Source: Rhizobium sp. BT03
GTDB lineage: Bacteria > Pseudomonadota > Alphaproteobacteria > Rhizobiales > Rhizobiaceae
Length of the DNA: 64,000 bases
Assembly (NCBI RefSeq): GCF_030053155.1
Contig: NZ_CP125640.1
Span: 2,542,001 to 2,606,000, forward strand
Direction: 5' to 3'
Position numbers and translations under genes: made by a program. Shown here one piece after another: positions 48,342 through 63,650 of the stretch. The notes below the pieces were generated by a model. The model was given only the letters and a program-made list of their open reading frames with translations, was not told the origin of the DNA and did no database searches. Positions within the stretch are counted from its first letter, which is position 1. Every line of letters starts with the position of its first letter.

Positions 48342-49310
48342 TCAGTTGCCTACGCTTTCGACCACGCGCCAGTCCGGCCGGCCGAGATCGAACGGCCAGG
48401 CGTGCACATCCCGGTCGTTGAAGTAGACGACCTCCTGCAAGTTCGGAAAGGCGCTCTGCTTCAGCGTCGCGGTTTCGATCCAGGGCCTGACATAGGCGTC
48501 GCCGCCTTCATAACCCAGCTCCGCCACCCAGACCGGCTTGCCGTAGCCGGCGACGAGATCGTAACCCTGCTTCAGCGCTTCGGCGAACGTGCGATGCTTG
48601 TTGTAGGCAAGCTCGTCGTAGCGTTCCAGGCCAAAGACCGAGAGGCCGACGAGATCGACATAATCGTCGCCGGGGTAGTAGTCCTGCAAGCCGGGCTCAC
48701 CCTTCGGCGACCACATGATTTCAGTGCCCGGCGCCTCCTGGCGGACGATATCCATCATTCGCTTGTAGGCGGCGATATAATCGCGCGGATTCCACCCGGA
48801 CCATGAGAACCGTCCCGACTTGTCCTCCATCTCCTGGCCCCAGCGGACGATCACCGGGCTTTTCAGCTGGGATATCATCTGCGCGATCGCCCGCATGTTG
48901 ACATCGTAATCGCCGCGCAGGACCTTCTGGCGAAGCTCGTTGGAGGTCAGCCGCCAGTCGACGTCCCAGGACCACGGCTCCACTGAGATCAGCATATTGC
49001 GGCCCCTGGCCAGCGCGTAGGCATCAGCGACGCGCAGCGTCTCCAGATCGACGTCCTCCCAGGGCAGGAACAGGGCCTCGGTCGAGACATTCGATTGCGC
49101 GCCGAAGTCGCCATGCGGATCGTAGGCGCCGAACTTGATGCCGTCGGAATGCAGAACGGGGCGTTTGTCGATGATCGTCTGGACGCCTGCCGCCGGGTTC
49201 GGAACAATGCCGGCATATTGCATCTCGCTTCGGCCAGGCATATCAGCGGCACACAGCAGGAGCAGTGCCATCGCTGCGGTCGAGAGGTTTTTTTTCATCA
49301 GCTTCTTCAC
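48342..49310 (-). CDS. Secreted GH26-like glycoside hydrolase
   Basis: A 322-residue protein with a signal peptide (1 to about 28) and a clan GH-A TIM barrel. Glu 160 in VRWGQEMEDKSG is the likely acid/base and Glu 264 in KPVWVAELGYEG the likely nucleophile. DYYPGDDYVDLVGLSVFG matches the GH26 strand before the active site. GH26 enzymes include beta-mannanases and related endo-glycanases. As the last gene of a polysaccharide operon, it may trim or release the polymer made by the GT2 synthase. The assignment to GH26 rather than a sister family is moderate. Confidence 0.8.
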   Translation of the reverse strand: MKKLMKKNLSTAAMALLLLCAADMPGRSEMQYAGIVPNPAAGVQTIIDKRPVLHSDGIKFGAYDPHGDFGAQSNVSTEALFLPWEDVDLETLRVADAYALARGRNMLISVEPWSWDVDWRLTSNELRQKVLRGDYDVNMRAIAQMISQLKSPVIVRWGQEMEDKSGRFSWSGWNPRDYIAAYKRMMDIVRQEAPGTEIMWSPKGEPGLQDYYPGDDYVDLVGLSVFGLERYDELAYNKHRTFAEALKQGYDLVAGYGKPVWVAELGYEGGDAYVRPWIETATLKQSAFPNLQEVVYFNDRDVHAWPFDLGRPDWRVVESVGN

Positions 49311-49313
49311 GGC

Positions 49314-49841
49314 TCACCCTCCTTTTCGGGCTACTTCCTGGCTCAGCAGGACCTGCTTCAGGTCATGCGCCTTGGCGCTGACCGAATCCATGGGAACGAG
49401 CTTGCGAAACTCGTCATCAACGCGCACGGACGCATGACGGAAGACGTACCAATTGCCGTCCGGCTGGCGCCGCTGATAGATCGTGTTGCCGATCTTGCGG
49501 TGGCCGAAACAGGTGCTGGCGCGGGCCGCACCTTCGGCATTCGTCCAGGTGGCGCGCATGCAGAGCTGACCGAGATCGTCGACCACCCACTTGCCTTCGG
49601 CGAAGGATTGCTTGCCCTTGTCGTTCACCCAGGCGACGAACCGCCGGCCGTCATCCGAGAAACGGCCGCCGCCGGTGTTCCAGACCCAGGTCTTGTCGCC
49701 GTAGATGCGGTAGAGCTCATAGGCACTGAGCGGCGTCGGCGTCGCCGCCTTCTTGCCGGCTGCCTCGGCGCCATGTGCCGCCAACGGCAGGCATAGGCTG
49801 AGAGCAAGCGCTGCTCCATAAAGTTTCGATCCGATACGCAT
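49314..49841 (-). CDS. DUF995 family exported protein
   Basis: A 175-residue protein with a signal peptide (1 to about 24, ending AHGAEA). The DUF995-like body includes SAYELYRIYGDKTWVWNTGG, GGRFSDDGRRFVAWV and FGHRKIGNTIYQRRQPDGNW. It is probably periplasmic; function is unknown, but DUF995 proteins are frequent in rhizobial envelope and polysaccharide loci. The ATG at 49841 has AGGAGGATGTA before it, which fixes the start. Four bases separate it from the GH26-like gene. Confidence 0.75.
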   Translation of the reverse strand: MRIGSKLYGAALALSLCLPLAAHGAEAAGKKAATPTPLSAYELYRIYGDKTWVWNTGGGRFSDDGRRFVAWVNDKGKQSFAEGKWVVDDLGQLCMRATWTNAEGAARASTCFGHRKIGNTIYQRRQPDGNWYVFRHASVRVDDEFRKLVPMDSVSAKAHDLKQVLLSQEVARKGG

Positions 49842-49878
49842 TACATCCTCCTGTTCGGCACTTGCCGGCTCCGCCGGC

Positions 49879-51747
49879 TCAGACACCCTGTTGGTCCCGT
49901 CCCATGTTGCCGAACCCATTCCATTTGAGACGGAATTTCGTGATCTTGGTCTTGCCGCCGCCGAGGCCGGCACCGGCCACGGCAAATTGCGTTTCGGTGA
50001 AGCTGACGAATGGCTGGCCGTGGGAAAGGGCTTCGAGGCTGCGGAGACCATGGCTGCCCAGCTGCATGCCGCCGGTAAACCAGATGGCAAGCCCCATGGC
50101 GGTCGCGAGCCGCAGCCCGTGCGATTGCGGCAGCAGCGGCAGGCCGTTCTCGATCGCATGGCGAACGACGATCAGCACCGCCACCGACAGATAGATCGAG
50201 AGGTTTATCGCCGCGAAAATATAAAAGCCTTGGGCGGCGGCGGCCTCGCTGGCGAGCGCTATGGCGACGGCGCACAGCCCGGCGAGCGCGATATAGGGCG
50301 CGACGACGCGCAGCGGCAGAGAATGCTGCTGCTGCTTTCCCTTCGGCGTGATGCGGAAATCGACGAAGGAGCCGGAGATATAATCGCGCATGGCCGCCAG
50401 GCTGCCGGCGAGCGACCATGGCCAGCGCAGGAAGATGAAGGCCAGCCCCTCCCAGCCGAACAGTTTCGCATCATGCGGCCTGAAGCTTCCCGTCGCTCGC
50501 CAGAAGACGGAAAACAGCGTCAGCACGACCGATATCGGCGCGAAATGCAGCAGAAAATCCGGATAGGTGACGTTGACGAAAACATGGCCCGTCAGCAGGG
50601 CGGCAACCGGCAGCAGGAACATCACCGCCATGAAAACGGAAAAGAGCGGATACCACAGCTGCGAGAACACGAACTGAAATTTCAGCCGCCACGGCAGATG
50701 CGCGATGTAGCGGCTGGAATGTTGCAGCAGAATGGTGACGAGGCTGCGCGACCACTGGAACTCCTGGACGACGAGATCGGCAAAATTCGCCGGGCCGTCA
50801 CCATGGGCGATCGCATCGACGGCATGCACGCCGCGCCAGCCGCCGGCATTCATCATCAGCGTCGTCGAATGGTCTTCGGCAAGCTCGGGGCCGAGGCCGC
50901 CGATCTGACGCAGCGCCGAGGTGCGAACCGCATAATGCGAGCCGATGCAAAGCGGCGCCCAGCCATTGTTGTAACCGGTCTGCAGCGAACCGTGCAGGCT
51001 GGCCTCGGCATAGAGCCTGCCGCGCGCGGCCCAGCTCGCAGCCGCATTCGCATCGCAGATGCTGGGCGCGGAGACATAACCGATTTCGGGGTCGGCGAAG
51101 GGACGCAGGACCTCGCGGAGATAGGTCGGCGTCGGCACATGATCGGCATCGAACTGGGCGACGAAATCGTAACGCGCATAGCCGAAATGATCGTAGAAAT
51201 AGGCGAGGTTGCCTTCCTTGCAGCGCGTCCGGCGCGGCCAGGTCGCACGATGATAGTCCGCCACCCCCTTTCGGGTGGAGATCAGCACGCCGCGCTCGGC
51301 GCACCAGCGCCGGGTCTCCTCCGAAGGATCCTCGTCGGCCAGCCAGACATCGAAATCGACGCCGACCTGGTCGAGCATCGCCTGCAGCGTGGCGCGGACG
51401 ACGGCAAAGGGCTCGGAGGGCGCCTTGGTGACCACCATCGCCACCCGCCCCTCCGGCAGCTCTGCGCGCGGGCTGACCGTCCGCGCATCGAGGAAGATCA
51501 GGATGAAATAGGCCGGGACGAGCGTGATCCAGCCCAATACCAGGGTGATGAGCACGAAGGCGGTCCAGGAAATGATGTGAGCCGACTGGCACCACCAGAT
51601 CCAGAAATAACCGAGCGCCGCCAGCCAGCAGAGGATGCCGAGGCCGTAAGCGGCGCGGTTCCAGCCGCTAAAAACAGGATCGAATGTATCTGCGGCGGCG
51701 GCTTTCGCCGTCCTGGCACGGTGGCCGATTTCCGAACCAATGCTCAT
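49879..51747 (-). CDS. Membrane glycosyltransferase 2, cellulose-synthase-like
   Basis: A 622-residue processive-type GT2. Two membrane helices are at the N terminus (about 33-85). The catalytic domain has ADED (137-140), DAD (200-202 in FVAQFDADHVPTP), ED (291-292, LAEDHSTT) and a QEFQWSRS motif (328-335) in the place of QxxRW. At least six more helices follow. No PilZ domain is seen. The start overlaps the galE stop. It probably extrudes a beta-linked polymer; glucomannan or a related heteroglycan is possible, given the GH26-like, GalE and decarboxylase neighbours. The exact polymer cannot be told. Confidence 0.88.
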   Translation of the reverse strand: MSIGSEIGHRARTAKAAAADTFDPVFSGWNRAAYGLGILCWLAALGYFWIWWCQSAHIISWTAFVLITLVLGWITLVPAYFILIFLDARTVSPRAELPEGRVAMVVTKAPSEPFAVVRATLQAMLDQVGVDFDVWLADEDPSEETRRWCAERGVLISTRKGVADYHRATWPRRTRCKEGNLAYFYDHFGYARYDFVAQFDADHVPTPTYLREVLRPFADPEIGYVSAPSICDANAAASWAARGRLYAEASLHGSLQTGYNNGWAPLCIGSHYAVRTSALRQIGGLGPELAEDHSTTLMMNAGGWRGVHAVDAIAHGDGPANFADLVVQEFQWSRSLVTILLQHSSRYIAHLPWRLKFQFVFSQLWYPLFSVFMAVMFLLPVAALLTGHVFVNVTYPDFLLHFAPISVVLTLFSVFWRATGSFRPHDAKLFGWEGLAFIFLRWPWSLAGSLAAMRDYISGSFVDFRITPKGKQQQHSLPLRVVAPYIALAGLCAVAIALASEAAAAQGFYIFAAINLSIYLSVAVLIVVRHAIENGLPLLPQSHGLRLATAMGLAIWFTGGMQLGSHGLRSLEALSHGQPFVSFTETQFAVAGAGLGGGKTKITKFRLKWNGFGNMGRDQQGV

Positions 51748-52727
51748 GCCGTCACCTTCAGGCCGAAAGTGGGACCGGCGGTGCGGATGATCGTATCAAT
51801 ATCGGAGAGAGCGGGCGTGAAGCCGAGTTCCGCCTTCGCTCTTGCCGTGTCGGCAAAGAGGATCGGCGGATCGCCGGCCCGGCGGGGCCGATAACGGACG
51901 GGAACTTCAAGGCCGGTCGCCCGATGGATGGCTTCGAGGATCTCGCGCACCGAAGTGCCTCGGCCGGAGCCGAGATTGACACTGAGCGAGCCGCCGTCGG
52001 CCATCAGGTGATTGACGGCGGCAAGATGGGCCTGCGCGAGATCGCTGACATGAATATAGTCGCGCACACAGGTTCCGTCTTCGGTCGGATAATCGGTGCC
52101 GAAGATATCGAGCCGCTCCAGCCTGCCGGCGGCAGCGAGAAGGGCGCGAGGGATGAGATGGGTCTCGGGCTGGTGGCGCTCGGCAAGCTCACCCTCCGGA
52201 TCGGCGCCGGCCGCATTGAAATAACGCAGCGCGGCGAAGCGGATCCCGTAGGCAGCCGCAAAATCCTCGAGCGCCATCTCGAAGATCAGTTTGGTGCGGC
52301 CGTAGGGATTGACCGGTTGCTGTGGCGTTTCCTCCCGTATCGGCAGGGTGGCGGGGACGCCATACGTGGCGCAGCTGCTCGAAAAGACGATCCGCTCGAT
52401 ATCCTGGTCGAGGCAGGCCTCCAGCAGCGTCAGGCTGCCGACGACGTTGTTGCGGTAATATTTCCTCGGCATCTCGACGGATTCGCCGACATAGGCATTG
52501 GCGCCGCAATGGATGACGCAATCGGGCGAAAACTCCGCGAGGGTCCGGCGCAGTGTCGCTGCATCGGCAAGATCCGCCCGGATCAGCGGCCCCCAGCGGA
52601 CACTGTCGGCATGCCCCGTCGAGAGATTGTCGTAGGTGACCGGGACCATGCCGGCACGCGCCAGCGTTTTGCAGATATGACTGCCTATGAAACCGGCGCC
52701 ACCGGTAACCAAGATGTAGCGGGGCAT
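51744..52727 (-). CDS. galE: UDP-glucose 4-epimerase
   Basis: A 327-residue extended SDR with the NAD motif VTGGAGFIGSH, DNLSTGHADSVRWG, the catalytic pair in SSCATYG and NPYGRTK, and the C-terminal GDPPILFADTARAKAELGF. It interconverts UDP-glucose and UDP-galactose, supplying precursors for the polymer synthase. The ATG at 52727 follows GGAGGCCGTATGAG. It is one base away from the preceding epimerase/decarboxylase stop. Other 4-epimerase substrates such as UDP-GlcNAc cannot be ruled out. Confidence 0.9.
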   Translation of the reverse strand: MPRYILVTGGAGFIGSHICKTLARAGMVPVTYDNLSTGHADSVRWGPLIRADLADAATLRRTLAEFSPDCVIHCGANAYVGESVEMPRKYYRNNVVGSLTLLEACLDQDIERIVFSSSCATYGVPATLPIREETPQQPVNPYGRTKLIFEMALEDFAAAYGIRFAALRYFNAAGADPEGELAERHQPETHLIPRALLAAAGRLERLDIFGTDYPTEDGTCVRDYIHVSDLAQAHLAAVNHLMADGGSLSVNLGSGRGTSVREILEAIHRATGLEVPVRYRPRRAGDPPILFADTARAKAELGFTPALSDIDTIIRTAGPTFGLKVTA

Positions 52728-52728
52728 C

Positions 52729-53766
52729 TCATACGGCCTCCGCCTTCTCGGCGCCGGCCTTCTTTGCGCCAGCAAGCAGGCCGTCGAAATAATCGACGGT
52801 GCGCGCCAGGCCGGTTTCGAGGCCGATGCAGGGCTGCCAGCCCAGATCGGCGATCGCCCGGGAAATATCCGGCCGCCGCTGGCGGGGGTCATCGGTGACC
52901 GCCGGCAGATGAACGATCCGGGAGCGCGAATTGGTCCGGTCGCGGATGATTTCCGCCAGGCGCCGAACGGTGATCTCGGTCGGGTTGCCGAGGTTGATCG
53001 GACCATGGCAGGCGCTGCCGGCGGCCGAGAAACGCAGGAAGCCCTCGACGAGATCGTCGACATAGCAGAAAGAGCGGGTCTGCTGGCCATCGCCATAGAT
53101 CGTCAGGTCTGCATTGCGCAGCGCCTGCACGATGAAATTGGAGACCACCCGGCCGTCATCCAGACGCATGCGCGGCCCATAGGTGTTGAAGATGCGGCCG
53201 ACCTTGATGTCGACGCCGTAAGTCCTGTGATAATCGAAGAAGAGGGTCTCGGCGCTGCGTTTGCCCTCGTCGTAGCAGGCGCGCGGTCCGATCGGGTTGA
53301 CGTTGCCGCAATAGGATTCGTGCTGCGGGCTTTGGTTCGGGTCGCCATAGACTTCCGACGTCGACGACTGAACGACGACCGCACCGGTCTTGCGCGCACA
53401 ATCCAAGGTGTTGACGGCGCCGAGCACATTGGTGAGCAATGTGCCCACCGGATCCCGCTGATAGTCGGGCGGTGAGGCGGGCGAGGCAAAGTTGAAGATG
53501 AGCGACGCGTCGATATCGAAGGGCTGGCGAATATCGTGCTCGACGATGTGAAAACGGGCGTTCGAGGCGAGGTGATCGACATTCACGCGGCGGCCGGTCG
53601 AAAAATTATCGAGACAGATGACCCGGTGGCCGCGCTGCAGAAGCCTTTCACAGAGATGCGAGCCGAGGAAACCTGCTCCGCCATTCACCAGAGCGGTGCC
53701 CATCTCCTTGAGCACCGGCATGCCTGTTACTTCGGAATAACCTTCGTTGGGAACGAAACTACGCAT
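52729..53766 (-). CDS. UDP-glucuronate decarboxylase-like SDR protein
   Basis: A 345-residue extended SDR with GGAGFLGSHLCERL (29-42), CLDNFSTGR, FNFASPASPPDYQRDPVGTL, SSTSEVYGDP, the catalytic Tyr 165 and Lys 169 (YDEGK), and RIFNTYGPRM. These are typical of UDP-xylose synthases, which decarboxylate UDP-glucuronic acid; dTDP-glucose dehydratases are the next closest. It is the first gene of the minus-strand polysaccharide operon. The promoter must lie in the AT-rich region upstream. Xylose in the final polymer would fit but is inference. Confidence 0.86.
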   Translation of the reverse strand: MRSFVPNEGYSEVTGMPVLKEMGTALVNGGAGFLGSHLCERLLQRGHRVICLDNFSTGRRVNVDHLASNARFHIVEHDIRQPFDIDASLIFNFASPASPPDYQRDPVGTLLTNVLGAVNTLDCARKTGAVVVQSSTSEVYGDPNQSPQHESYCGNVNPIGPRACYDEGKRSAETLFFDYHRTYGVDIKVGRIFNTYGPRMRLDDGRVVSNFIVQALRNADLTIYGDGQQTRSFCYVDDLVEGFLRFSAAGSACHGPINLGNPTEITVRRLAEIIRDRTNSRSRIVHLPAVTDDPRQRRPDISRAIADLGWQPCIGLETGLARTVDYFDGLLAGAKKAGAEKAEAV

Positions 53767-54534: not shown

Positions 54535-55317
54535 TCAGTTGCGCCACCGGCCGGACATGTCGTCTTCGCCGGCGGGATGCTCGTTGAAGAAACGGGATGC
54601 CGCTTCCGTGCGGTTTCGCACGTTCATCTTCTTATAGATGTTGCGGACGTGAACCTTCACGGTGTTTTCGGAAAGATGCAGCTTGTCGGCGATGATCTTG
54701 TTCTGCGTGCCCTTGCATATGAGGTCCAGGATCTGAACCTCGCGCGTGGTCAAAGAGGAGATGCTGTCGCGTCTCAGCTTCAGCGCATTGGTCCGCGCCG
54801 CATCGACCGATTTTGTCTGATAGAGCGAAGGCTCCAGCGGGGTGTTCTTGTTGGTGAGGCGATTGAGCAGGGCGGACGGAAAATGCTCGCCGCCCTTCAT
54901 CAGCAGATCCACCGCGGCCATGAAGACATCGAGCCGCAGGTTGAGCGGCAGGACGCCGTCGATGATCCTTGCCTCCACCAGGCGGCTGACATAGGGTTCG
55001 AGCATGTCGATCGCTTCGACGACAAGGCCGACAGAGGTTTCCGGGTGGTTTTCGCGGGCAGCCTGCAGCGCCTCATGAAGCTCCGGCGCAGGTATATGAT
55101 AGAATAAAACGAGCTTCAGATCGCCGCTATCTTTTTCCAGCATCGGCTTCGTGCTCGTTATGCTTGCGACATCACAGTTCGGAAATTTCTTGGCCAGCGC
55201 CTCTACCATGCATTCTGAAAACAGATCCGCCTTGGCGACCACCAGTATAGTATTTCCCGACGAACCTAACTTCCTGCTCTGGTCTGTATTCTCCATTCCT
55301 GAGCTTGTCATGAACAT
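54535..55317 (-). CDS. LuxR family response-type regulator
   Basis: A 260-residue regulator. The C-terminal LuxR/FixJ helix-turn-helix is at about 185-245 (LTTREVQILDLICKGTQNKI, LHLSENTVKVHVRNIYKKMN). The N-terminal 22-140 part is receiver-like (TILVVAKADLFSECMVEALA) but lacks the clear acidic pocket and Asp phosphorylation site, so it may be an atypical receiver. The ATG at 55317 is preceded by GGGGAGGCGTAT. It sits between the polysaccharide operon and the type I secretion locus, and could regulate either. An 834-base AT-rich gap separates it from the secretion genes. Confidence 0.85.
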   Translation of the reverse strand: MFMTSSGMENTDQSRKLGSSGNTILVVAKADLFSECMVEALAKKFPNCDVASITSTKPMLEKDSGDLKLVLFYHIPAPELHEALQAARENHPETSVGLVVEAIDMLEPYVSRLVEARIIDGVLPLNLRLDVFMAAVDLLMKGGEHFPSALLNRLTNKNTPLEPSLYQTKSVDAARTNALKLRRDSISSLTTREVQILDLICKGTQNKIIADKLHLSENTVKVHVRNIYKKMNVRNRTEAASRFFNEHPAGEDDMSGRWRN

Positions 55318-56151: not shown

Positions 56152-57129
56152 ATGTCCGGCGACTATAATCACGACCCGAAATCATCGGGCGACGAAACCG
56201 AAATCACGAAGGTCGGGGCGCTTGCCGACGGCTTTGCCAACAGTGCTGTCAATTCAACCGAAGTCGATGACGGCTCGACCGGTTATGTCGGCGTCGCCAA
56301 TGGCGACAACCGCGACAATACCGACAACAGCGTCGACGTCGACGTCAAGACCGACATCGACGTGTCTGCCAATAACGGCAACAACCGCGACAACGAATAC
56401 GACTGGAGCTACAAGTCCGACGACGACACGAGCACCAAGACCACGACGATCACCGACTCCAATAACGACTACGACTGGAGTTATGACAGCAAGTCGTACA
56501 GCGACAACGACACCGACACCAAGACGATCACGGACACCGATACGAAAACCGTGACCGACACCGATATCAAGACCATTACCGATACGGACACCAAGACGAT
56601 CTCCGACAGCAACAACACCGCTGACAGCTTCAACAAGACCGACACCGACTTCGCCGTCATCGAGGACGTCAAGGACTTCGACAACCTCGGCGTTGCCGGC
56701 CACGACCTCACCTTCAACCTCGGCGACGACTTCTCCTTCACGCTCGACGTCGACAGCATCCTCAACAATTCGCTGACGGGTGCCGGCAACGACAGCGGCT
56801 TCAGCGCCGTCCAGGCGAACCATCTGGCCGACCAGGACAGCGCCTGGAACATCAAGATGGACAACGACGGCGCCCAGAACCACCTGAACGCCAATGCCGG
56901 CACCGCCGATAGCGCGGAAGGCATGGAGATGGACGGCAGGGGCTGGGATCTCAAGGCCGGCGACGACGCCAACGGCTCGAGCGCGGCCGATGCTTCGGCG
57001 ATCCTTGCCAATTCCGGCTTCCACCTCGAGCTCGTTCAGGGCGCGAACCTGCTCAGCAACACGGTGGACTCCAGCGTCATCGGCGGCAATTCCCATGTCT
57101 CCGACGTCGGCGAGGATACCGGCACCTGA
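56152..57129 (+). CDS. Acidic repetitive protein, candidate type I secretion substrate 1
   Basis: A 325-residue, very acidic, cysteine-free protein without a Sec signal, rich in Asp, Asn, Ser and Thr. Residues 80-118 contain two related copies of a YDWSY unit. Residues 121-152 are four tandem octapeptides of the form TDTKTITD. The later part has FNLGDDFSFTLDVDSILNNS and QANHLADQD (221-229), a motif also found repeatedly in the 685-aa protein. It is the first gene of a locus that continues with a type I exporter and adaptor, so it is probably secreted by them. RTX nonapeptides are absent. The ATG at 56152 follows GGAGAATCTTTG. Confidence 0.75.
   Translation: MSGDYNHDPKSSGDETEITKVGALADGFANSAVNSTEVDDGSTGYVGVANGDNRDNTDNSVDVDVKTDIDVSANNGNNRDNEYDWSYKSDDDTSTKTTTITDSNNDYDWSYDSKSYSDNDTDTKTITDTDTKTVTDTDIKTITDTDTKTISDSNNTADSFNKTDTDFAVIEDVKDFDNLGVAGHDLTFNLGDDFSFTLDVDSILNNSLTGAGNDSGFSAVQANHLADQDSAWNIKMDNDGAQNHLNANAGTADSAEGMEMDGRGWDLKAGDDANGSSAADASAILANSGFHLELVQGANLLSNTVDSSVIGGNSHVSDVGEDTGT
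56512..56607 (+). repeat. Four tandem 24-bp coding repeats
   Basis: Codons 121-152 of the 325-aa protein form four units encoding TDTKTITD, TDTKTVTD, TDIKTITD and TDTKTISD. The DNA units are similar but have synonymous changes, so the array is not recent. Confidence 0.85.
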
Positions 57130-57151
57130 CCCTGACCTCCAAGGACCAAGA

Positions 57152-57183
57152 CGAACTGCACCGGCGCTCGCCGGTGCAGTTCG
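57152..57183 (+). terminator. Strong hairpin between the two candidate substrates
   Basis: CGAACTGCACCGGCG (57152-57166) and CGCCGGTGCAGTTCG (57169-57183) are perfect inverted repeats, so a very stable stem forms. It is followed by ACTGTTTGAAAA, a weak T run. It may be a partial terminator or an mRNA-stabilising element that makes the first protein more abundant than the downstream ones. Confidence 0.75.
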
Positions 57184-57273
57184 ACTGTTTGAAAACGGTT
57201 TGACGACCACTCCATGGCTCCCGGCGGGGCCGCTTCCAAGGCCGATCGTCATTTCGAATGGGAGGGCCGAACC

Positions 57274-59331
57274 ATGCATATCGAGAAGATTTCGGAAATC
57301 ATCGCGCACTTCATCGGTCTCTTCGAGATGACCACCGAAGAGATGAGGGCGCGCGCCAAATATGCCGAAGGCGCGGGGTCTGGCGAAGATGGACCGGCTC
57401 TGCCGGATCAGGACACTTTTACCGCGGCCTTCTCGTCCAATCTGCAGCTCAAGGACTACGATCCCGGTGTCATCTACAACAGCGGCAGCTACGAGATCGA
57501 ATTCGGTCCGGCGCGCCATTTGGGCCGCGTCTTCGAAGAAAGCCTCGAGAAGCTGGCGGCGATTGCCGCACGCGACATCGCCTTACCGCATTTCGGCGAG
57601 GCTACGGATATCGTGCTGTCGGATGAGCCGGAGCTGAATGTCTTTGCCGGGCCTGGGTCGTCGATCAGCCATGTGCTCCAGGTCAACGTCCTTTACGACG
57701 ACGATTATCTCGACATGTCGGATGGCATCCATGCTCCCCGGGACACGAGTTTCGTGATCGAGCGGCTGGCGGAGTTCAGCACCGCGGCCGAAATCTACAC
57801 ACCTTTTGCAAGCCTCCACCGAACCGATAGCTATGATGGCGCGCTGAAAATCGCCCAGGATATCGAAAACTATATCCAGAATGCCAGGAATAGCGAGGAC
57901 GGCAAAGGCAGCGAAGATAGCGAAGGCGGCGAGGCAACCTCGCTTGGCGCCGACGCCACGCATGATTTCATCCGCATCGACCCCGAGGTCAACGGCGCCG
58001 TCTACATCAACGGCAAGGTCGAGGCCGATATCCCCGTGCTCGATGATTTCCTGCCCGACCGCGGTCTCGCCAAGATCCCGGAAGAGCCCGACGACAGCCA
58101 TTCATCCGTCGAGCAGACCGACCCGAGCGGCAACAGCCTTGACGTGACGGCCGGTGCGAATGTCGTCATCAACGTCGCCTCGGTGATCAATACCGGCGTC
58201 ATCGCCTCGGTCACCGCCGTCATGGGCGACTACCACCAGGTCGACGCGGTTTCCCAATCCTTTGTCTACAGCGACGATGATGAGATCGCCTCGGCGCTGC
58301 GCTCGTCCGGCTATTCGGCCGAAGAGGCCGGAACAGTCGCCAAGAATATCGCCGTCTTCCAACAAAGCAGCTTCGAAGCATCGAGCCGCGCCGAAACCGA
58401 CGCGGCCGATCCGACGTTCCCGACCAGCTGGCGCGTCAGTGTCATCGACGGCGACGTCTCCTTCGTACAATGGGTCGAGCAGTATCACTTCATCAGCGAC
58501 AACGACACGCTGACGGTCACCACCTCGGGATCCGAAACCACAATTCTGACGGGCGGCAATACCTCCATCAACTTCTCCTCCTTTTTCGGCATGGGCATGC
58601 AATATGATCTGGTGATCATCGGCGGCAATGTGCTCGACATCAACAGCATCACGCAGATCTCGCTGCTCTACGACAATGACCGGGTGCGGGCGGAAGACGG
58701 CGCCGATCCCGGCGCCGACATTGAAACCGGCAACAACCTGATCTGGAATTTCGCCTCGATCCACAATGTCGGGACGGGCAGCTTCGAAGCGATGCCGGAC
58801 TATATGGTCGAAGCGCAGGAAGCGATCGAAGACCGCGATCCCAATATGCCGGAAGGCCTGTCGTTCGATGTGAACTTCCAGGGATATGCCGGCCTCAACG
58901 TGCTCTACATCACCGGCAATCTCTACGACATGACGATTATCAAGCAGGTGAGCATCCTCGGCGATTCCGATGATGTGACCCTGGCGGCATCGGCGCTCCT
59001 CGAGAACAATCCCGATGCGACGATTACGATCGACACCGGCAGCAATGCGCTCATCAACATCGCCGAGATCGTCGACTACGACAGTTTCGGCGACACCACC
59101 TATCTGGCAGGCCAGCTCTATTCGGACGCCATCCTCATTCAGGGCGGGCTGGTGGAGCACGATACGACACAGCCGCAACCGGCCGGCGACAGGCTTGCCA
59201 ACGAAGTCATCGCCTTCCTTGATGACGACGATCCCGCGGCCGGCGATTCCGCTGATGGCGTCATCAATGCCGGGCATGATCTTTCATGGTCGTCGGGGCA
59301 TCCCGACGTCATGCAAGCCATGGTCGCGTGA
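57274..59331 (+). CDS. Large repetitive beta-rich protein, candidate type I secretion substrate 2
   Basis: A 685-residue acidic, cysteine-free protein without a signal peptide. From about residue 130 on, related segments recur, each with a GxNxxxNxA-type strand (near 294, 428, 486, 589) and a Qxxx(L/I/Y)x(D/E)xD ending (136, 328, 403, 461, 558, 623; for example QISLLYDND and QVSILGDSD). This suggests a beta-solenoid or calcium-binding repeat fold of an undescribed type; classical RTX repeats are absent. It precedes the ABC exporter gene by 19 bases. The ATG at 57274 has GGGAGGGCCGAACC before it; an upstream in-frame extension has no ribosome site. Confidence 0.75.
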   Translation: MHIEKISEIIAHFIGLFEMTTEEMRARAKYAEGAGSGEDGPALPDQDTFTAAFSSNLQLKDYDPGVIYNSGSYEIEFGPARHLGRVFEESLEKLAAIAARDIALPHFGEATDIVLSDEPELNVFAGPGSSISHVLQVNVLYDDDYLDMSDGIHAPRDTSFVIERLAEFSTAAEIYTPFASLHRTDSYDGALKIAQDIENYIQNARNSEDGKGSEDSEGGEATSLGADATHDFIRIDPEVNGAVYINGKVEADIPVLDDFLPDRGLAKIPEEPDDSHSSVEQTDPSGNSLDVTAGANVVINVASVINTGVIASVTAVMGDYHQVDAVSQSFVYSDDDEIASALRSSGYSAEEAGTVAKNIAVFQQSSFEASSRAETDAADPTFPTSWRVSVIDGDVSFVQWVEQYHFISDNDTLTVTTSGSETTILTGGNTSINFSSFFGMGMQYDLVIIGGNVLDINSITQISLLYDNDRVRAEDGADPGADIETGNNLIWNFASIHNVGTGSFEAMPDYMVEAQEAIEDRDPNMPEGLSFDVNFQGYAGLNVLYITGNLYDMTIIKQVSILGDSDDVTLAASALLENNPDATITIDTGSNALINIAEIVDYDSFGDTTYLAGQLYSDAILIQGGLVEHDTTQPQPAGDRLANEVIAFLDDDDPAAGDSADGVINAGHDLSWSSGHPDVMQAMVA

Positions 59332-59350
59332 GTATCGCGGAGGAATCACG

Positions 59351-61675
59351 ATGAACCAGATTTCCAAACAGATATTTGCAGCCGGCAGCGCCCTCGATCT
59401 CAAATCGGGCACTATCCCCGCCGCTATTCCTTCGGAAGCGAAGAGGAGCAATCTGTGCCTCTCTGCGATCGATGAGGCGGTCGAGAACCTTCGTCGGCTC
59501 AGCGGCAGCGCCGCTTCGTCTCCATCTCCATCTCCGTCCCTCGATCGCGGCAAAGAGCGGGCCGAAGATGCAGCAAGCGAAGCTGCCGAGATGGCGATCG
59601 TGCAGGCGCCTCTCCCGCAAAAGATGGTGACGCCGGAAGCCGTAACGAAGGTAGAAACGGCGCCTCCTGCAGCGGTGCTGCAGGGCCCGATGCCAGCAAA
59701 ACCGGCAGAAGTAAAACCGGTGGAAGCGGCCCAGCCGCCGATCGAAGCGCGGGCGGCGCCCGAAAGGCCGAAAGAGGCGACCGAGCTCAAATCGAGCCCG
59801 ACGGTGCCCTTCGGCAAAACCATCGATGGCGAGAGCGGTCCGATCAGCGAGAGCGACAGGCGGCTGCGCAGCGGCGGCGGTGGCAACGGCAAGAATTCCG
59901 ATCCCGGCGGCGACGGGGGCGGGGGCGGAGGAAGTGGCGGCGGATTTCACAAGCGCAGCGAACCTGTGAATTTCGCCGCCAGCCTCTCGCGCGGCATGGC
60001 GGCGGTCCGACGCAATATGATGGTCGTCATGATGTTCACGATCGCCATCAACGTGCTCCTGCTGGCGATCCCGCTCTATCTCTTCCAGATATCCGACCGG
60101 GTGCTGACCAGCCGCTCGATCGACACGCTCGTCATGCTCTCGATCGCCGTGCTCGGCGCCGTGCTGCTGCAGGCATTCATGGATTCGGTGCGGCGCTTCA
60201 TCCTGATGCGCACCGCAGTGGAGCTCGAAGTGCAGCTCGGCGCGCCGATCCTCAGCGCTGCGGCGCGGGCATCGCTGCATGGCAGCGGCAAGGACTATCA
60301 GACGCTGCAGGACCTGCAGCTGCTGCGCGGCTTCCTGACGTCAGGCACGCTGATCGCGTTTCTCGATGCGCCACTGATGCCGCTCTTCGTCGTCGTCGTC
60401 TATTTCGTGCATCCGCATCTCGGCATCATCATCCTGACCTGCTGCGCGGTGCTTTTCCTGATCGCCTATCTGAACCAGAAATTCACCGCCCGCCAGTTTG
60501 CCGAATCCAACGGTTATCTCAGCCGGGCGAATTTCCACCTCGATTCCATGTCACGCAATTCGCAGATCATCAATGCGATGGCGATGATCCCCGAGGCCGT
60601 GAAGATGTGGGGACGCGAGACGGCGGGCTCGCTGAAATCGCAGGTCGAGGCGCAGGACCGCAACATCATCTTCTCCGGCATATCGAAGGCCTGCCGCATG
60701 ATCACACAGGTCACGCTGCTCGGCTGGGGCGCGCATCTGTCGCTCTCCGGCGAGCTGACCGGCGGCATGGTGATCGCGTCATCGATCATCTCGGGACGGG
60801 CGCTGGCGCCGATCGAAGGCGCGATCGAAGGCTGGCACCAGTTCAACCGATCGGCCGCCGCCTATTCCAGGATCAAGAGCCTGCTCTTGAACTCGCCGTT
60901 GAACTTCCCGCGTCTGCGCCTTCCCAACCCCGAAGGCCGGCTCGATGTCGAACGCATTCTCTTCGTGCCGCCGCCGCAGAAGAAGGTCATTCTCAACGGC
61001 ATCTCCTTCTCGCTCAAGAAAGGGGAATCGCTGGCGATCATCGGCAACTCGGGATCCGGCAAGACCACGCTCGGCAAGATGCTCGTCGGTTCGATCGTGC
61101 CGACATCGGGAAATGTGCGCCTCGACCTGATGGATCTGCGCAATTGGGACCAGCGCCAGTTCGGCGAAAGCATCGGCTATCTGCCGCAGGACGTGCAGCT
61201 CTTTCCCGGCACCATCAAGGCCAATATCTGCCGCATGCGCGACGACGTCGAGGATCGCCAGATCTACGAGGCCGCGGTGCTGGCCGACGTGCACGAACTC
61301 ATCGCCGGCTTCCCGCAGGGCTATGAAACCATCGTGGCGGCCGACGGCGCTCCGCTTTCGGGCGGCCAGAAGCAGCGCATCGCGCTTGCCCGCGCCTTCT
61401 TCGGCAATCCCAAATTCGTGGTGCTCGACGAGCCGAATTCGAACCTCGATACCCAGGGCGAGGCTGCCCTTGCCAAGGCGCTGATCCACGCCAAGAAGCA
61501 GGGCATCACCACCGTGACCATCACCCAGCGCCCGGCGCTGCTCCAATGCGTCGACAAGATCCTGGTGCTCAAGGAAGGCACTGTCGCCATGTTCGGGGAA
61601 CGGATCGAGGTGCTGCAGGCGCTTTCCAAGAACAACGGCAATAACGGTCAACCAGCACCGCGCATCGAAGGGTGA
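59351..61675 (+). CDS. Type I secretion ABC transporter (permease/ATPase) with long N-terminal extension
   Basis: A 774-residue HlyB/PrtD-type exporter. Residues 1-205 are unusual: a short start, then a Pro/Ala/Glu-rich low-complexity stretch and a Gly-rich stretch (about 173-198). The membrane domain covers about 215-480 (six helices, beginning MMVVMMFTIAINVLLLAIPL). The nucleotide-binding domain has Walker A GNSGSGKTT, signature LSGGQKQR, Walker B FVVLDEP and a late TITQRP switch. It lacks the C39 peptidase domain, so it fits C-terminal-signal substrates. GGAGGAATCACG precedes the ATG. It pairs with the HlyD gene five bases downstream. Confidence 0.92.
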   Translation: MNQISKQIFAAGSALDLKSGTIPAAIPSEAKRSNLCLSAIDEAVENLRRLSGSAASSPSPSPSLDRGKERAEDAASEAAEMAIVQAPLPQKMVTPEAVTKVETAPPAAVLQGPMPAKPAEVKPVEAAQPPIEARAAPERPKEATELKSSPTVPFGKTIDGESGPISESDRRLRSGGGGNGKNSDPGGDGGGGGGSGGGFHKRSEPVNFAASLSRGMAAVRRNMMVVMMFTIAINVLLLAIPLYLFQISDRVLTSRSIDTLVMLSIAVLGAVLLQAFMDSVRRFILMRTAVELEVQLGAPILSAAARASLHGSGKDYQTLQDLQLLRGFLTSGTLIAFLDAPLMPLFVVVVYFVHPHLGIIILTCCAVLFLIAYLNQKFTARQFAESNGYLSRANFHLDSMSRNSQIINAMAMIPEAVKMWGRETAGSLKSQVEAQDRNIIFSGISKACRMITQVTLLGWGAHLSLSGELTGGMVIASSIISGRALAPIEGAIEGWHQFNRSAAAYSRIKSLLLNSPLNFPRLRLPNPEGRLDVERILFVPPPQKKVILNGISFSLKKGESLAIIGNSGSGKTTLGKMLVGSIVPTSGNVRLDLMDLRNWDQRQFGESIGYLPQDVQLFPGTIKANICRMRDDVEDRQIYEAAVLADVHELIAGFPQGYETIVAADGAPLSGGQKQRIALARAFFGNPKFVVLDEPNSNLDTQGEAALAKALIHAKKQGITTVTITQRPALLQCVDKILVLKEGTVAMFGERIEVLQALSKNNGNNGQPAPRIEG

Positions 61676-61680
61676 ACGAC

Positions 61681-63030
61681 ATGGGACGGAAAAATCAGGA
61701 GACGGCCGGCCCGGCGCAGCTCGAATGGTATAGCGACGTGCCGCGCTCGATCCGAATGCACAGCATCGTCGGCCTCACGGTTCTCTTCACCTCGTTCGGA
61801 GGCTTCGGCTTCTGGGCCGCGACCGCCCCGCTTGCCTCCGCCGTCATCGCACAGGGGAGCTTCGTTGCAACGGGCAACAACAAGATCATCCAACATCTGG
61901 AAGGCGGCATCATCAGGGAGATGCGCGTCAGCGAAGGCGACACGGTGAAGGAAGGCGATGTCCTCTTGACCCTCGACACCACCGCATCCCGTTCGAACGA
62001 ACGGATGCTGCAGCTTCGCCGGCTGCGCCTGGAAGCCGTCGTCGCAAGGCTCCGCGCCGAGGCACAGGGCCTGCGCGAATTCCACATTCCCGATATTGTG
62101 ACGAAAGAGGCGGGCGACCCCGACATCGGCGCGATCATCCAGAGCCAGAACGTCGTCTTCCACAGCAAGCAGATCAAACTCGAAGAGCAGCTCAATCTGA
62201 TCGAGAAGAACATCAAGTCGCTGGAATACCGTTTCGCCGGCTATAAAGGCCAACGAGAATCCTTTGAAAGGCAATTGGCGCTGCTGACCGAGGAACGCGA
62301 TTCCAAGGCCCGGCTGGTCAAGGTCGGTTATATGCGCAAAACCGATCTCTTGGCGATCGAGCGGGCGATCGCCGATGCGATGGGCGACATATCTCGCCTG
62401 AACGGCGAGCTCAACGAGAGCGAGGCGGAGGTTGCCAAGTTCCGCCAGGAAGCCATCATTGCTGTCAATTCCAACAAGCAGGCGGCGCTCGATGCGCTCG
62501 AGACCGCCGAATCCGATCTGGACAGTGTTCGCCAGCAGATGCGTGAGGCTGCCGGCGTGCTGGAGCGCACCACCATCCGCTCACCGGTGACGGGTACGGT
62601 GGTGCGCTCTTATTTCCACACCGCCGGCGGCGTCATCACCACGGGCAAGCCGATCATGGAGATCCTGCCGGCGCATGTGCCGCTGATCCTGGAAGCGCAG
62701 GTGCTGCGCACCTCCATCGACCAGCTGCGCGAGGGAGAAACGGCCTCGATCCGGTTGACGGCGCTCAATCGGCGGACGACGCCGGTCCTGCAGGGCAGGG
62801 TCTTCTACGTCTCGGCCGACTCGATCGAGGAAAATTCGGGGGTTTCGGTCAAGGACGTCTACATCGTGCGCGTCCAAATACCGGATTCAGAGATTGCGCG
62901 GGTGCATAATTTCCACCCCGTTCCCGGCATGCCGGCCGAAGTGCTGATCCAGACGTCGGAACGCACCTTCTTCGAATATATCAGCAAACCAATCACCGAC
63001 AGCATGTCCCGGGCTTTCAAGGAACGCTGA
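61681..63030 (+). CDS. HlyD/PrtE-type adaptor of the type I secretion system
   Basis: A 449-residue inner-membrane adaptor with one helix (about 30-50), a lipoyl half (IIQHLEGGIIREMRVSEGDT), and long coiled-coil helices (about 120-280). The second half has RTTIRSPVTGTVVRSYFHT, and the end is a beta-barrel domain. HLEGGI and the IRSPVTG motif are typical of the HlyD family in type I secretion. It links the ABC exporter to an outer membrane TolC-type protein that is not encoded nearby. ATG 61681 is favoured by GAAGG at proper spacing; a GTG overlapping the previous stop (61672) is the alternative. Confidence 0.92.
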   Translation: MGRKNQETAGPAQLEWYSDVPRSIRMHSIVGLTVLFTSFGGFGFWAATAPLASAVIAQGSFVATGNNKIIQHLEGGIIREMRVSEGDTVKEGDVLLTLDTTASRSNERMLQLRRLRLEAVVARLRAEAQGLREFHIPDIVTKEAGDPDIGAIIQSQNVVFHSKQIKLEEQLNLIEKNIKSLEYRFAGYKGQRESFERQLALLTEERDSKARLVKVGYMRKTDLLAIERAIADAMGDISRLNGELNESEAEVAKFRQEAIIAVNSNKQAALDALETAESDLDSVRQQMREAAGVLERTTIRSPVTGTVVRSYFHTAGGVITTGKPIMEILPAHVPLILEAQVLRTSIDQLREGETASIRLTALNRRTTPVLQGRVFYVSADSIEENSGVSVKDVYIVRVQIPDSEIARVHNFHPVPGMPAEVLIQTSERTFFEYISKPITDSMSRAFKER

Positions 63031-63158: not shown

Positions 63159-63650
63159 ATGGCGGCGATGTCCGATGTCCTCCTGCGGGTCGGGCGCTTG
63201 AACTATGTCTGGACGAATACCGAAAGCCTGCTGATCTACATCATCGCCCATTTGCTGCGGGTCGAAAAGGATGCGGCAATCGTCGTCTTCCTGACCCTCA
63301 ACACGACACGGGCGCGGATCGATCTCGTCGAACGGCTTGCCAAACTCGCCTCGACCTCGGCTGCCGACCGCAAGGCAATCCTTTCAGCCATGTCGCGGCT
63401 GAAGAAGGAATCCAAGACCCGCAACAAGTACAATCACTGCATCTATTCCTTCGACGAAAAAGGAGAGATTTCGAGCACGCAGCTGATGCGGCTGGTCGAG
63501 GACGACAAGGAGATCCGCTATGGCAAGATCGAGCAGATGGATGCACGCGAGATCGACCTTCTGGAGAAGTCGATCGCCGAAATCGTCGCCATCAGCCGGG
63601 CGCTCTGGGCCTTCATCCATGCAAGCCCGCGGATCTCCGGCGAGCTCTGA
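63159..63650 (+). CDS. Hypothetical protein (163 aa)
   Basis: I do not recognise a family. The product is probably all-helical and soluble, with VLLRVGRLNYVWTNTESLLI, a TRARIDLVERLAKLASTS segment and a late EIDLLEKSIAEIVAISRALW helix. A start at 63159 is supported by AAAGGGCGAGC; an in-frame ATG at 63123 has no ribosome site. It follows the type I secretion adaptor by about 130 bases and may be cotranscribed. No link to secretion is visible. Membership in helical immunity-like or AbiV-like families was considered but not shown. Confidence 0.55.
   Translation: MAAMSDVLLRVGRLNYVWTNTESLLIYIIAHLLRVEKDAAIVVFLTLNTTRARIDLVERLAKLASTSAADRKAILSAMSRLKKESKTRNKYNHCIYSFDEKGEISSTQLMRLVEDDKEIRYGKIEQMDAREIDLLEKSIAEIVAISRALWAFIHASPRISGEL

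Follow-up and report, generated by a model that had tools for sequence, protein, structure and literature searches.

The stretch analysed here, 64,000 nucleotides of Rhizobium sp. BT03 (contig NZ_CP125640.1, positions 2,542,001 to 2,606,000; hereafter the window) from a genome of 6.9 Mb, carries a type I secretion module in which two acidic proteins, p1 and p2, are encoded directly upstream of an ATP-binding cassette (ABC) exporter and its adaptor. An earlier interpretation made from the letters alone, the sequence-only reading, had described a four-gene type I locus with two unfamiliar candidate substrates, and that observation is confirmed and was understated. The gene calls agree with the proposed order of p1, p2, exporter and adaptor, all on the + strand with small gaps (144 bases between p1 and p2, 19 bases between p2 and the ABC gene, and a 4-base overlap between the ABC and HlyD genes). 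The four genes stand, but the unit has more parts, namely a gene for a protein of 163 amino acids, a divergent LuxR-type regulator and a hairpin, so that the module reads as follows.

54535..55317, - strand: LuxR-type regulator (GerE domain, PF00196, E-value 2.9e-22), divergent; candidate regulator of the module
56152..57129, + strand: p1, acidic, predicted disordered candidate substrate, 325 amino acids
56941..57126, + strand: conserved C-terminal 62 residues of p1 (tail profile), candidate export signal
57152..57183, + strand: GC-rich hairpin after p1, stem of 14 base pairs, without a T run; candidate mRNA 3' stabiliser or attenuator
57274..59331, + strand: p2, acidic repeat protein, 685 amino acids, candidate second substrate
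57634..59181, + strand: repetitive all-beta core of p2, model residues 120-635, with low-confidence gaps (AlphaFold2 model and profile self-alignment)
59305..59328, + strand: C-terminal octad of p2, DVMQAMVA, candidate export signal behind a variable low-confidence linker
59351..61675, + strand: ToaD-type exporter, PrtD-class ABC permease/ATPase, 774 amino acids (TIGR01842, 771.6 bits)
59351..59998, + strand: N-terminal extension of the ABC protein, Pro/Ala/Gly-rich, about 216 amino acids
61672..63030, + strand: ToaE-type HlyD adaptor (membrane fusion protein; TIGR01843, 405 bits), GTG start
63159..63650, + strand: conserved companion of 163 amino acids with an RNxxxH motif, whose profile matches all 67 genomes with p2

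The two unfamiliar proteins and the exporter co-occur genome by genome, in line with the dedicated system that had been proposed. Relatives of p2 were found in 67 of 297 Rhizobiaceae genomes, and a profile of the ToaD-type ABC protein matched at 69 places, with 1002-1115 bits, in exactly those 67 genomes, the next best ABC scoring 596 bits. The p1 tail profile, built on the last 62 residues, matched at 68 places in 66 of the 297 genomes, all of them among the 67 with p2 and none elsewhere; the exception, G252, is an assembly of 1070 contigs in which p2 is itself partial. That p1 precedes p2 on one strand was checked by script for 16 of the 68 places and by eye for the rest. Because of this genome-level co-occurrence, the association of p1, p2 and the exporter appears to be more than chance.

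The same picture emerged from individual loci, of which 100 with p2 were collected (32 and 65 from two genome sets and 3 from plasmids, after exclusion of short duplicates). Homologues of p2 are not found mostly away from exporters: in all 93 loci with room for it, p2 is followed by a ToaD-type ABC gene at a distance of no more than 700 bases, and of no more than 300 bases in 91 of them. HlyD is present in 92 of 92 loci with room and p1 lies upstream of p2 in 92 of 96, the latter count coming from a scan of C-termini without bias filter that supersedes a bias-filtered 75 of 93. The loci without the p1 tail are L110 and the most remote p2-like loci, L155-L157, in which the ABC and HlyD genes are still present. 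In L110, on a Sulfitobacter plasmid, a p1-like gene (L110:6135-7808) leaves the family register before the tail, and the sister plasmid L167 keeps the tail. In Sinorhizobium meliloti Ak57 (L109:10991-13245) the annotation shows no ABC gene between p2 and HlyD, and the ABC frame appears split.

Wider searches with p2 matched 27 of 297 genomes across the order, four of them from the window's own family, and 2 of 289 across the class, one of which was the window's own; in the family around genome G483 the figure was 6 of 75. Matches were also obtained in 32 plasmid records, some over about half of p2, which include Ensifer, Sinorhizobium, Shinella, Paracoccus and Sulfitobacter. The module recurs in Rhizobium, Agrobacterium, Ciceribacter, Shinella, Sinorhizobium, Paracoccus and Sulfitobacter, in several families and into the Rhodobacterales.

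The exporter had been taken for an HlyB type, but it scores only 290.8 bits against TIGR01846 (cut-off 725.55), whereas 771.6 bits against TIGR01842 (cut-off 510.15) place it in the PrtD class; the adaptor is of the HlyD type, as stated, with 405 bits against a TIGR01843 cut-off of 208.65. Two other PrtD-class ABC open reading frames in the genome, of 589 and 591 amino acids, are too short to carry the N-terminal extension. Across 93 ToaD-type open reading frames, whose starts were not curated, the residues before the ABC core number 208 in the median (range 1-884), and FHKR or FHRR stands just before the core in 7 of 11 examples.

The type I systems of R. leguminosarum 3841 were listed by Krehenbrink and Downie in 2008 as prs, toa, tob and blt, and toa and tob were termed "enigmatic" because no secreted protein depended on either; no gene for a known substrate was stated to lie within 10 kb of toaDE (PMC2275737). 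Three ABC proteins of 3841 score above the cut-off for the PrtD class; their genes lie at 91.5 kb, 671 kb and 3.85 Mb and by gene number correspond to toaD (RL0072), tobD (RL0623) and prsD (RL3658), RL0072 being placed at 91.5 kb by gene order and not by a sequence labelled RL0072. The 91.5-kb ABC gene lies in locus L017, where the order LuxR-p1-p2-ABC-HlyD and the companion are as in the window. Because L017 shares this order and the companion, the window locus is the toa locus and its exporter, judged by sequence and gene order, is the ortholog of ToaDE (RL0072/RL0071). In the excerpts of PMC2275737, p1, p2, the hairpin and the companion are not described for toa, and the upstream neighbours are not taken up as cargo. 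Among open-licence PMC papers we found no later report of a ToaDE cargo since 2008, nor anything on p1 or p2. As an S. meliloti counterpart SMc04205-08 was considered, but this was not supported, the literature excerpts placing SMc04205/04206 with the fecIR iron genes. Two further exporter neighbourhoods were observed: an acidic, Pfam-negative open reading frame of 398 amino acids (L102:5286-6479, - strand) and a LuxR gene lie by the tobDE-like exporter of the window's genome, where the former may be cargo of a second orphan exporter, and a beta-helix, immunoglobulin/cadherin-like protein of 540 amino acids (L101:6521-8140, + strand) precedes a prsDE-like exporter, as expected of a PrsDE substrate.

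Both candidate substrates are acidic (isoelectric point, pI, of 4.05 for each) and neither has a recognisable domain, as had been noted: at E ≤ 1 no Pfam family matches p1 or p2, and the sole NCBIfam match of p1, a sigma-54 model at an E-value of 0.85, is without meaning. The absence of cysteine holds for the window pair but not for the family, since a cysteine after residue 30 occurs in 48 of 100 p2 and 10 of 96 p1 relatives. No Sec signal is apparent by eye in either protein. Neither contains a repeats-in-toxin (RTX) motif, and RTX cargo was rejected for the family as well, with tandem GGxGxDxUx pairs in 0 of 96 p1 and 0 of 100 p2 sequences; lone strict matches, never more than 3 per protein in p1, occur in 17 of 96 p1 and 2 of 100 p2, and the looser GGxGxD in 42 of 96 and 4 of 100, as Gly/Asp-rich sequence may give.

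In loci uncut by contig ends, the relatives of p1 range from about 200 to 728 amino acids (open reading frame starts not curated), contain repeats such as QGQGQ, EQEQ, NGNL and DTDTKT, and stand in tandem copies at loci L144 and L158. The AlphaFold model of p1, computed from 31 sequences, has a mean predicted local distance difference test score (pLDDT) of 37.6 and no confident structure, so that p1 is predicted to be disordered when alone or is not predictable from 31 sequences. The names fibrinogen-binding protein and MSCRAMM SdrC adhesin are found in public records of relatives only, and no adhesin domain matches at E ≤ 1 in Pfam. The tail is conserved in the family, with the consensus SAFNQxIVMGANLQxNxxDMTVVGGDxxxxxxGED or a variant of it.

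The closest relative of p2 in the genome scan is from R. ecuadorense, with 93% identity, and unlike p1 the protein is steady in size and present in one copy per locus. Its AlphaFold2 model (mean pLDDT 64.8, predicted template modelling score 0.65 overall) opens with a conserved N-terminal stretch modelled as a helix of low confidence, followed at about residues 120-635 by an all-beta core, in which pLDDT is mostly 65-90 and falls lower at residues 209-219, 270-284 and 345-351. The p2 profile aligns with itself out of register at an E-value of 5e-17, giving a repeat unit of approximately TGxNxLxNxAxI and then VGGxxYDxNIIxQxNVLxDNDxV. No solved structure matches the fold, the first Foldseek row, FapC, being not significant (E-value 0.16, TM-scores 0.03/0.10), and there were no matches in a viral library at E ≤ 0.001. 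A search of PHROGs also returned nothing. Compared with the p2 profile, the p1 tail scored 23.4, against a mean of 12.7 and a maximum of 18.5 for 60 column shuffles (E-value 0.007, probability 5.6%); the tail may thus weakly resemble the first half of the p2 repeat unit, a likeness above all 60 shuffles that is suggestive only.

The C-terminus of p2 is built differently from its core. Residues 637-684 fall below pLDDT 50 in the model, and the terminal octad is conserved, with D at -8 in 92 of 100 sequences, M/L at -6 in 91, M/V/I at -3 in 90 and L/V/I at -2 in 86. Entropies are 0.6-2.6 bits in the octad against 2.8-3.7 bits in the preceding positions, counted from the unaligned C-terminus, where changes in length inflate the values further upstream; the alignment consensus, too, has a majority residue at few of the positions ahead of the octad. 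The conserved tails of p1 and p2 behind variable linkers resemble the signals expected of type I substrates and are candidates for that role. On the genome evidence, both proteins are likely substrates of ToaDE.

Just past the p1 stop codon the window contains a perfect GC-rich stem of 14 base pairs that none of 100 shuffles reached. Of 73 loci numbered L033 and later, 60 have a stem of at least 10 base pairs after p1 and 13 lack it, the count rising to 81 of 96 when the close loci are included, and the 60 loci carry 52 distinct stem sequences. In control pieces of 170 bases such stems were found after p2 in 0 of 74, after the ABC gene in 0 of 75, after HlyD in 5 of 75, after the companion in 0 of 65, after LuxR in 2 of 41, before p1 in 1 of 70 and in random pieces in 8 of 400. 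Where p1 is duplicated, the hairpin follows both copies in L158 and one of two in L144. Because the hairpin follows p1 and not p2, the p1 RNA is probably protected or uncoupled, which would yield more p1 than p2 and exporter.

The companion profile matches all 67 p2 genomes with at least 157 bits and three others at 51.7, 22.9 and 21 bits, and the gene is near p2 in 53 of 55 loci with full flanks, downstream of HlyD in Rhizobium and on the p1 side, often beside LuxR, in many other lineages. The RNxxxH motif is near-invariant (R in 28 of 30 aligned sequences, N and H in all 30) and is of a kind linked to HEPN. A HEPN ribonuclease was not supported by profiles, PF18730 matching 1 of 30 members and only at an E-value of 0.043, with a best PDB E-value of 0.12. 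The companion may be a cytoplasmic helper of the Toa exporter. A LuxR-type gene is present in all 32 close loci.

The polysaccharide operon that the sequence-only reading saw next to the module is indeed there, on the opposite strand, with aps names assigned here from gene order.

52729..53766, - strand: UDP-glucuronate decarboxylase-like (uxs1-like) gene of the APS-type operon, named after relatives, with all NCBIfam models below cut-off
51744..52721, - strand: GalE-type epimerase (uxe-like; TIGR01179, 399 bits, cut-off 262.3), whose open reading frame opens further upstream, the start being estimated from the match
49879..51747, - strand: family 2 glycosyltransferase (apsS-like)
49314..50159, - strand: DUF995 protein (apsH-like; PF06191, E-value 2.3e-53), open reading frame start not curated
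48342..49310, - strand: glycoside hydrolase family 26 (apsE-like; PF02156, E-value 7.7e-07)

These five genes, decarboxylase, GalE, glycosyltransferase, DUF995 and glycoside hydrolase family 26, have the same order as those compared in the arabinose-containing polysaccharide (APS) operon of S. meliloti (PMC7902896), which has a second DUF995 gene as its sixth, and the two glycosyltransferases are 60% identical. Unlike in the window, Toa is not within 6 kb of the APS operon in the S. meliloti pSymB record. In 25 of the 32 close loci, relatives of the epimerase and glycosyltransferase are neighbours of Toa; among the wider p2 loci a relative of the decarboxylase occurs in L071, L142 and L143. 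APS-type genes adjoin the module in L106 and in two Sulfitobacter plasmids as well; in that of Sulfitobacter faviae a glycosyl hydrolase, a glycosyltransferase, GalE and the decarboxylase adjoin the companion, LuxR, p1, p2, ABC and HlyD genes, with a DUF995 gene about 8 kb beyond, and all six module genes match the window-family profiles. The neighbours of the module on a Shinella plasmid (L168:9285-10595) include a diguanylate cyclase and exopolysaccharide genes.

Taken together these data make it probable, in our assessment, that the locus encodes a type I system dedicated to the export of a disordered major protein, p1, and a beta-repeat minor protein, p2, to the surface or the matrix. Several observations weigh against this, the main one being the silent toaD mutant of 2008: in 3841 the mutation left supernatant proteins, the biofilm ring and nodulation unchanged, and when prsD and tobD were mutated as well, in double and triple combinations, the supernatant proteins showed no toa-dependent change (PMC2275737). 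That study ran SDS-PAGE on TCA-precipitated supernatants of Y-mannitol cultures (PMC2275737). Proteins that are strongly acidic and stay attached to the cell could escape such an assay. The tail of the window p1 ends without hydrophobic residues, and no outer-membrane factor over the TIGR01844 cut-off of 225.15 was found in the genome, the best of three matches reaching 156.3 bits. In the wider set, the LuxR hidden Markov model exceeds 50 bits in only 29 of 55 full loci, and relatives of the epimerase and glycosyltransferase are found in 2 of 68 wider p2 loci (L106 and L110), with flanks of 6-8 kb at most. In addition, the profiles were partly built from the genomes searched, and related genomes are not independent.

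The 2008 authors allowed a non-protein cargo for ToaDE (PMC2275737), in which case p1 and p2 would be cytoplasmic or regulatory. The lack of a toaD-dependent supernatant protein in 3841 and the genetic link to the polysaccharide operon fit such a cargo, but the ABC protein is nearest to the protein-exporting PrtD class, and p1 and p2, whose C-terminal tails are conserved, occur in step with it across genomes, and we regard this explanation as improbable. A larger, though still small, chance is given to p1 being the only cargo, with p2 an accessory to the apparatus, such as a surface anchor, chaperone or adaptor, and produced in amounts like those of the exporter. This would account for a hairpin that separates p1 from p2 but not p2 from the exporter, for a single p2 of constant size next to a p1 that varies from about 200 to 728 amino acids and is duplicated in two loci, and for the conserved N-terminal stretch of p2 with its low-confidence helix; however, since inspection by eye shows no Sec signal in p2, the protein would likewise depend on type I export to get out of the cell, and its conserved octad after a variable linker resembles an export signal.

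It is very improbable that the module is a two-component contact-dependent bacteriocin with the companion as immunity protein or helper. The companion occurs in all 67 p2 genomes, which would suit that role, but it is well conserved and most immunity proteins are not. Caulobacter Cdz likewise combines two proteins, a type I exporter and aggregation on the surface, along with a small membrane immunity protein, but CdzC and CdzD are hydrophobic glycine-zipper proteins of only 86 and 84 amino acids (PMC5380434), whereas p1 and p2, with 325 and 685 amino acids and a pI of 4.05, are large and acidic.

For a dedicated system with p1 and p2 as joint cargo, we propose that the LuxR-type regulator would switch on a p1-p2-toaD-toaE transcript, in which the stable hairpin would protect or uncouple the p1 message and so raise p1 above p2 and the exporter. 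Both proteins, recognised by their C-terminal tails, would then be exported in one step by ToaD, which carries the low-complexity extension at its N-terminus, together with ToaE and an outer-membrane factor whose gene lies elsewhere. Outside the cell, p2 would fold into its repetitive beta structure and may serve as anchor or nucleator for p1, whose long, disordered and acidic chain differs greatly in length between loci; the two would form a surface or matrix material that could work with the neighbouring arabinose-type polysaccharide. A stricter version, which we put forward tentatively and consider doubtful, is a curli-like organisation with one-step type I export, in which p1 is the major, fast-changing polymer and p2 its nucleator or anchor, both assembling with the arabinose-type polysaccharide, the p2 repeats sharing G-x-N-x3-N with the p1 tail; if true, both this class of type I cargo and this way of building extracellular protein polymers would be new.

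Since 2008 at the latest, ToaDE has lacked a known cargo, and the genome evidence now names two likely cargo proteins; with named cargo, predicted signals and predicted relative amounts, the question of what ToaDE exports becomes directly testable. The module recurs in several genera, yet p1 and p2 match no Pfam family and relatives of p1 are misnamed 'fibrinogen-binding protein'. The APS-type link, moreover, would join a protein and a polysaccharide of one matrix.

Among known systems, PrsDE likewise pairs a PrtD-class ABC protein with an HlyD adaptor, in the window's genome too; its Rap and Ply substrates serve the biofilm matrix (PMC9298526, PMC5061743), and it secretes at least 13 proteins whose genes are scattered (PMC2275737). 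Toa differs in its two dedicated neighbours without Pfam domains and in the extension of its ABC protein, which is missing from PrsD. The haemophore HasA, exported by HasDE, shows that a PrtD-class exporter can carry a non-RTX substrate with a C-terminal signal, but it is one small folded cargo with no disordered partner, unlike the proposed Toa pair. The curlin repeat family has no Pfam match in the window p1 or p2, and none of 39 p2 relatives matches it at E ≤ 0.1; the likeness to curli (csg) and Fap is by analogy: both combine a major and a minor repeat protein, and curli has a LuxR-type regulator.

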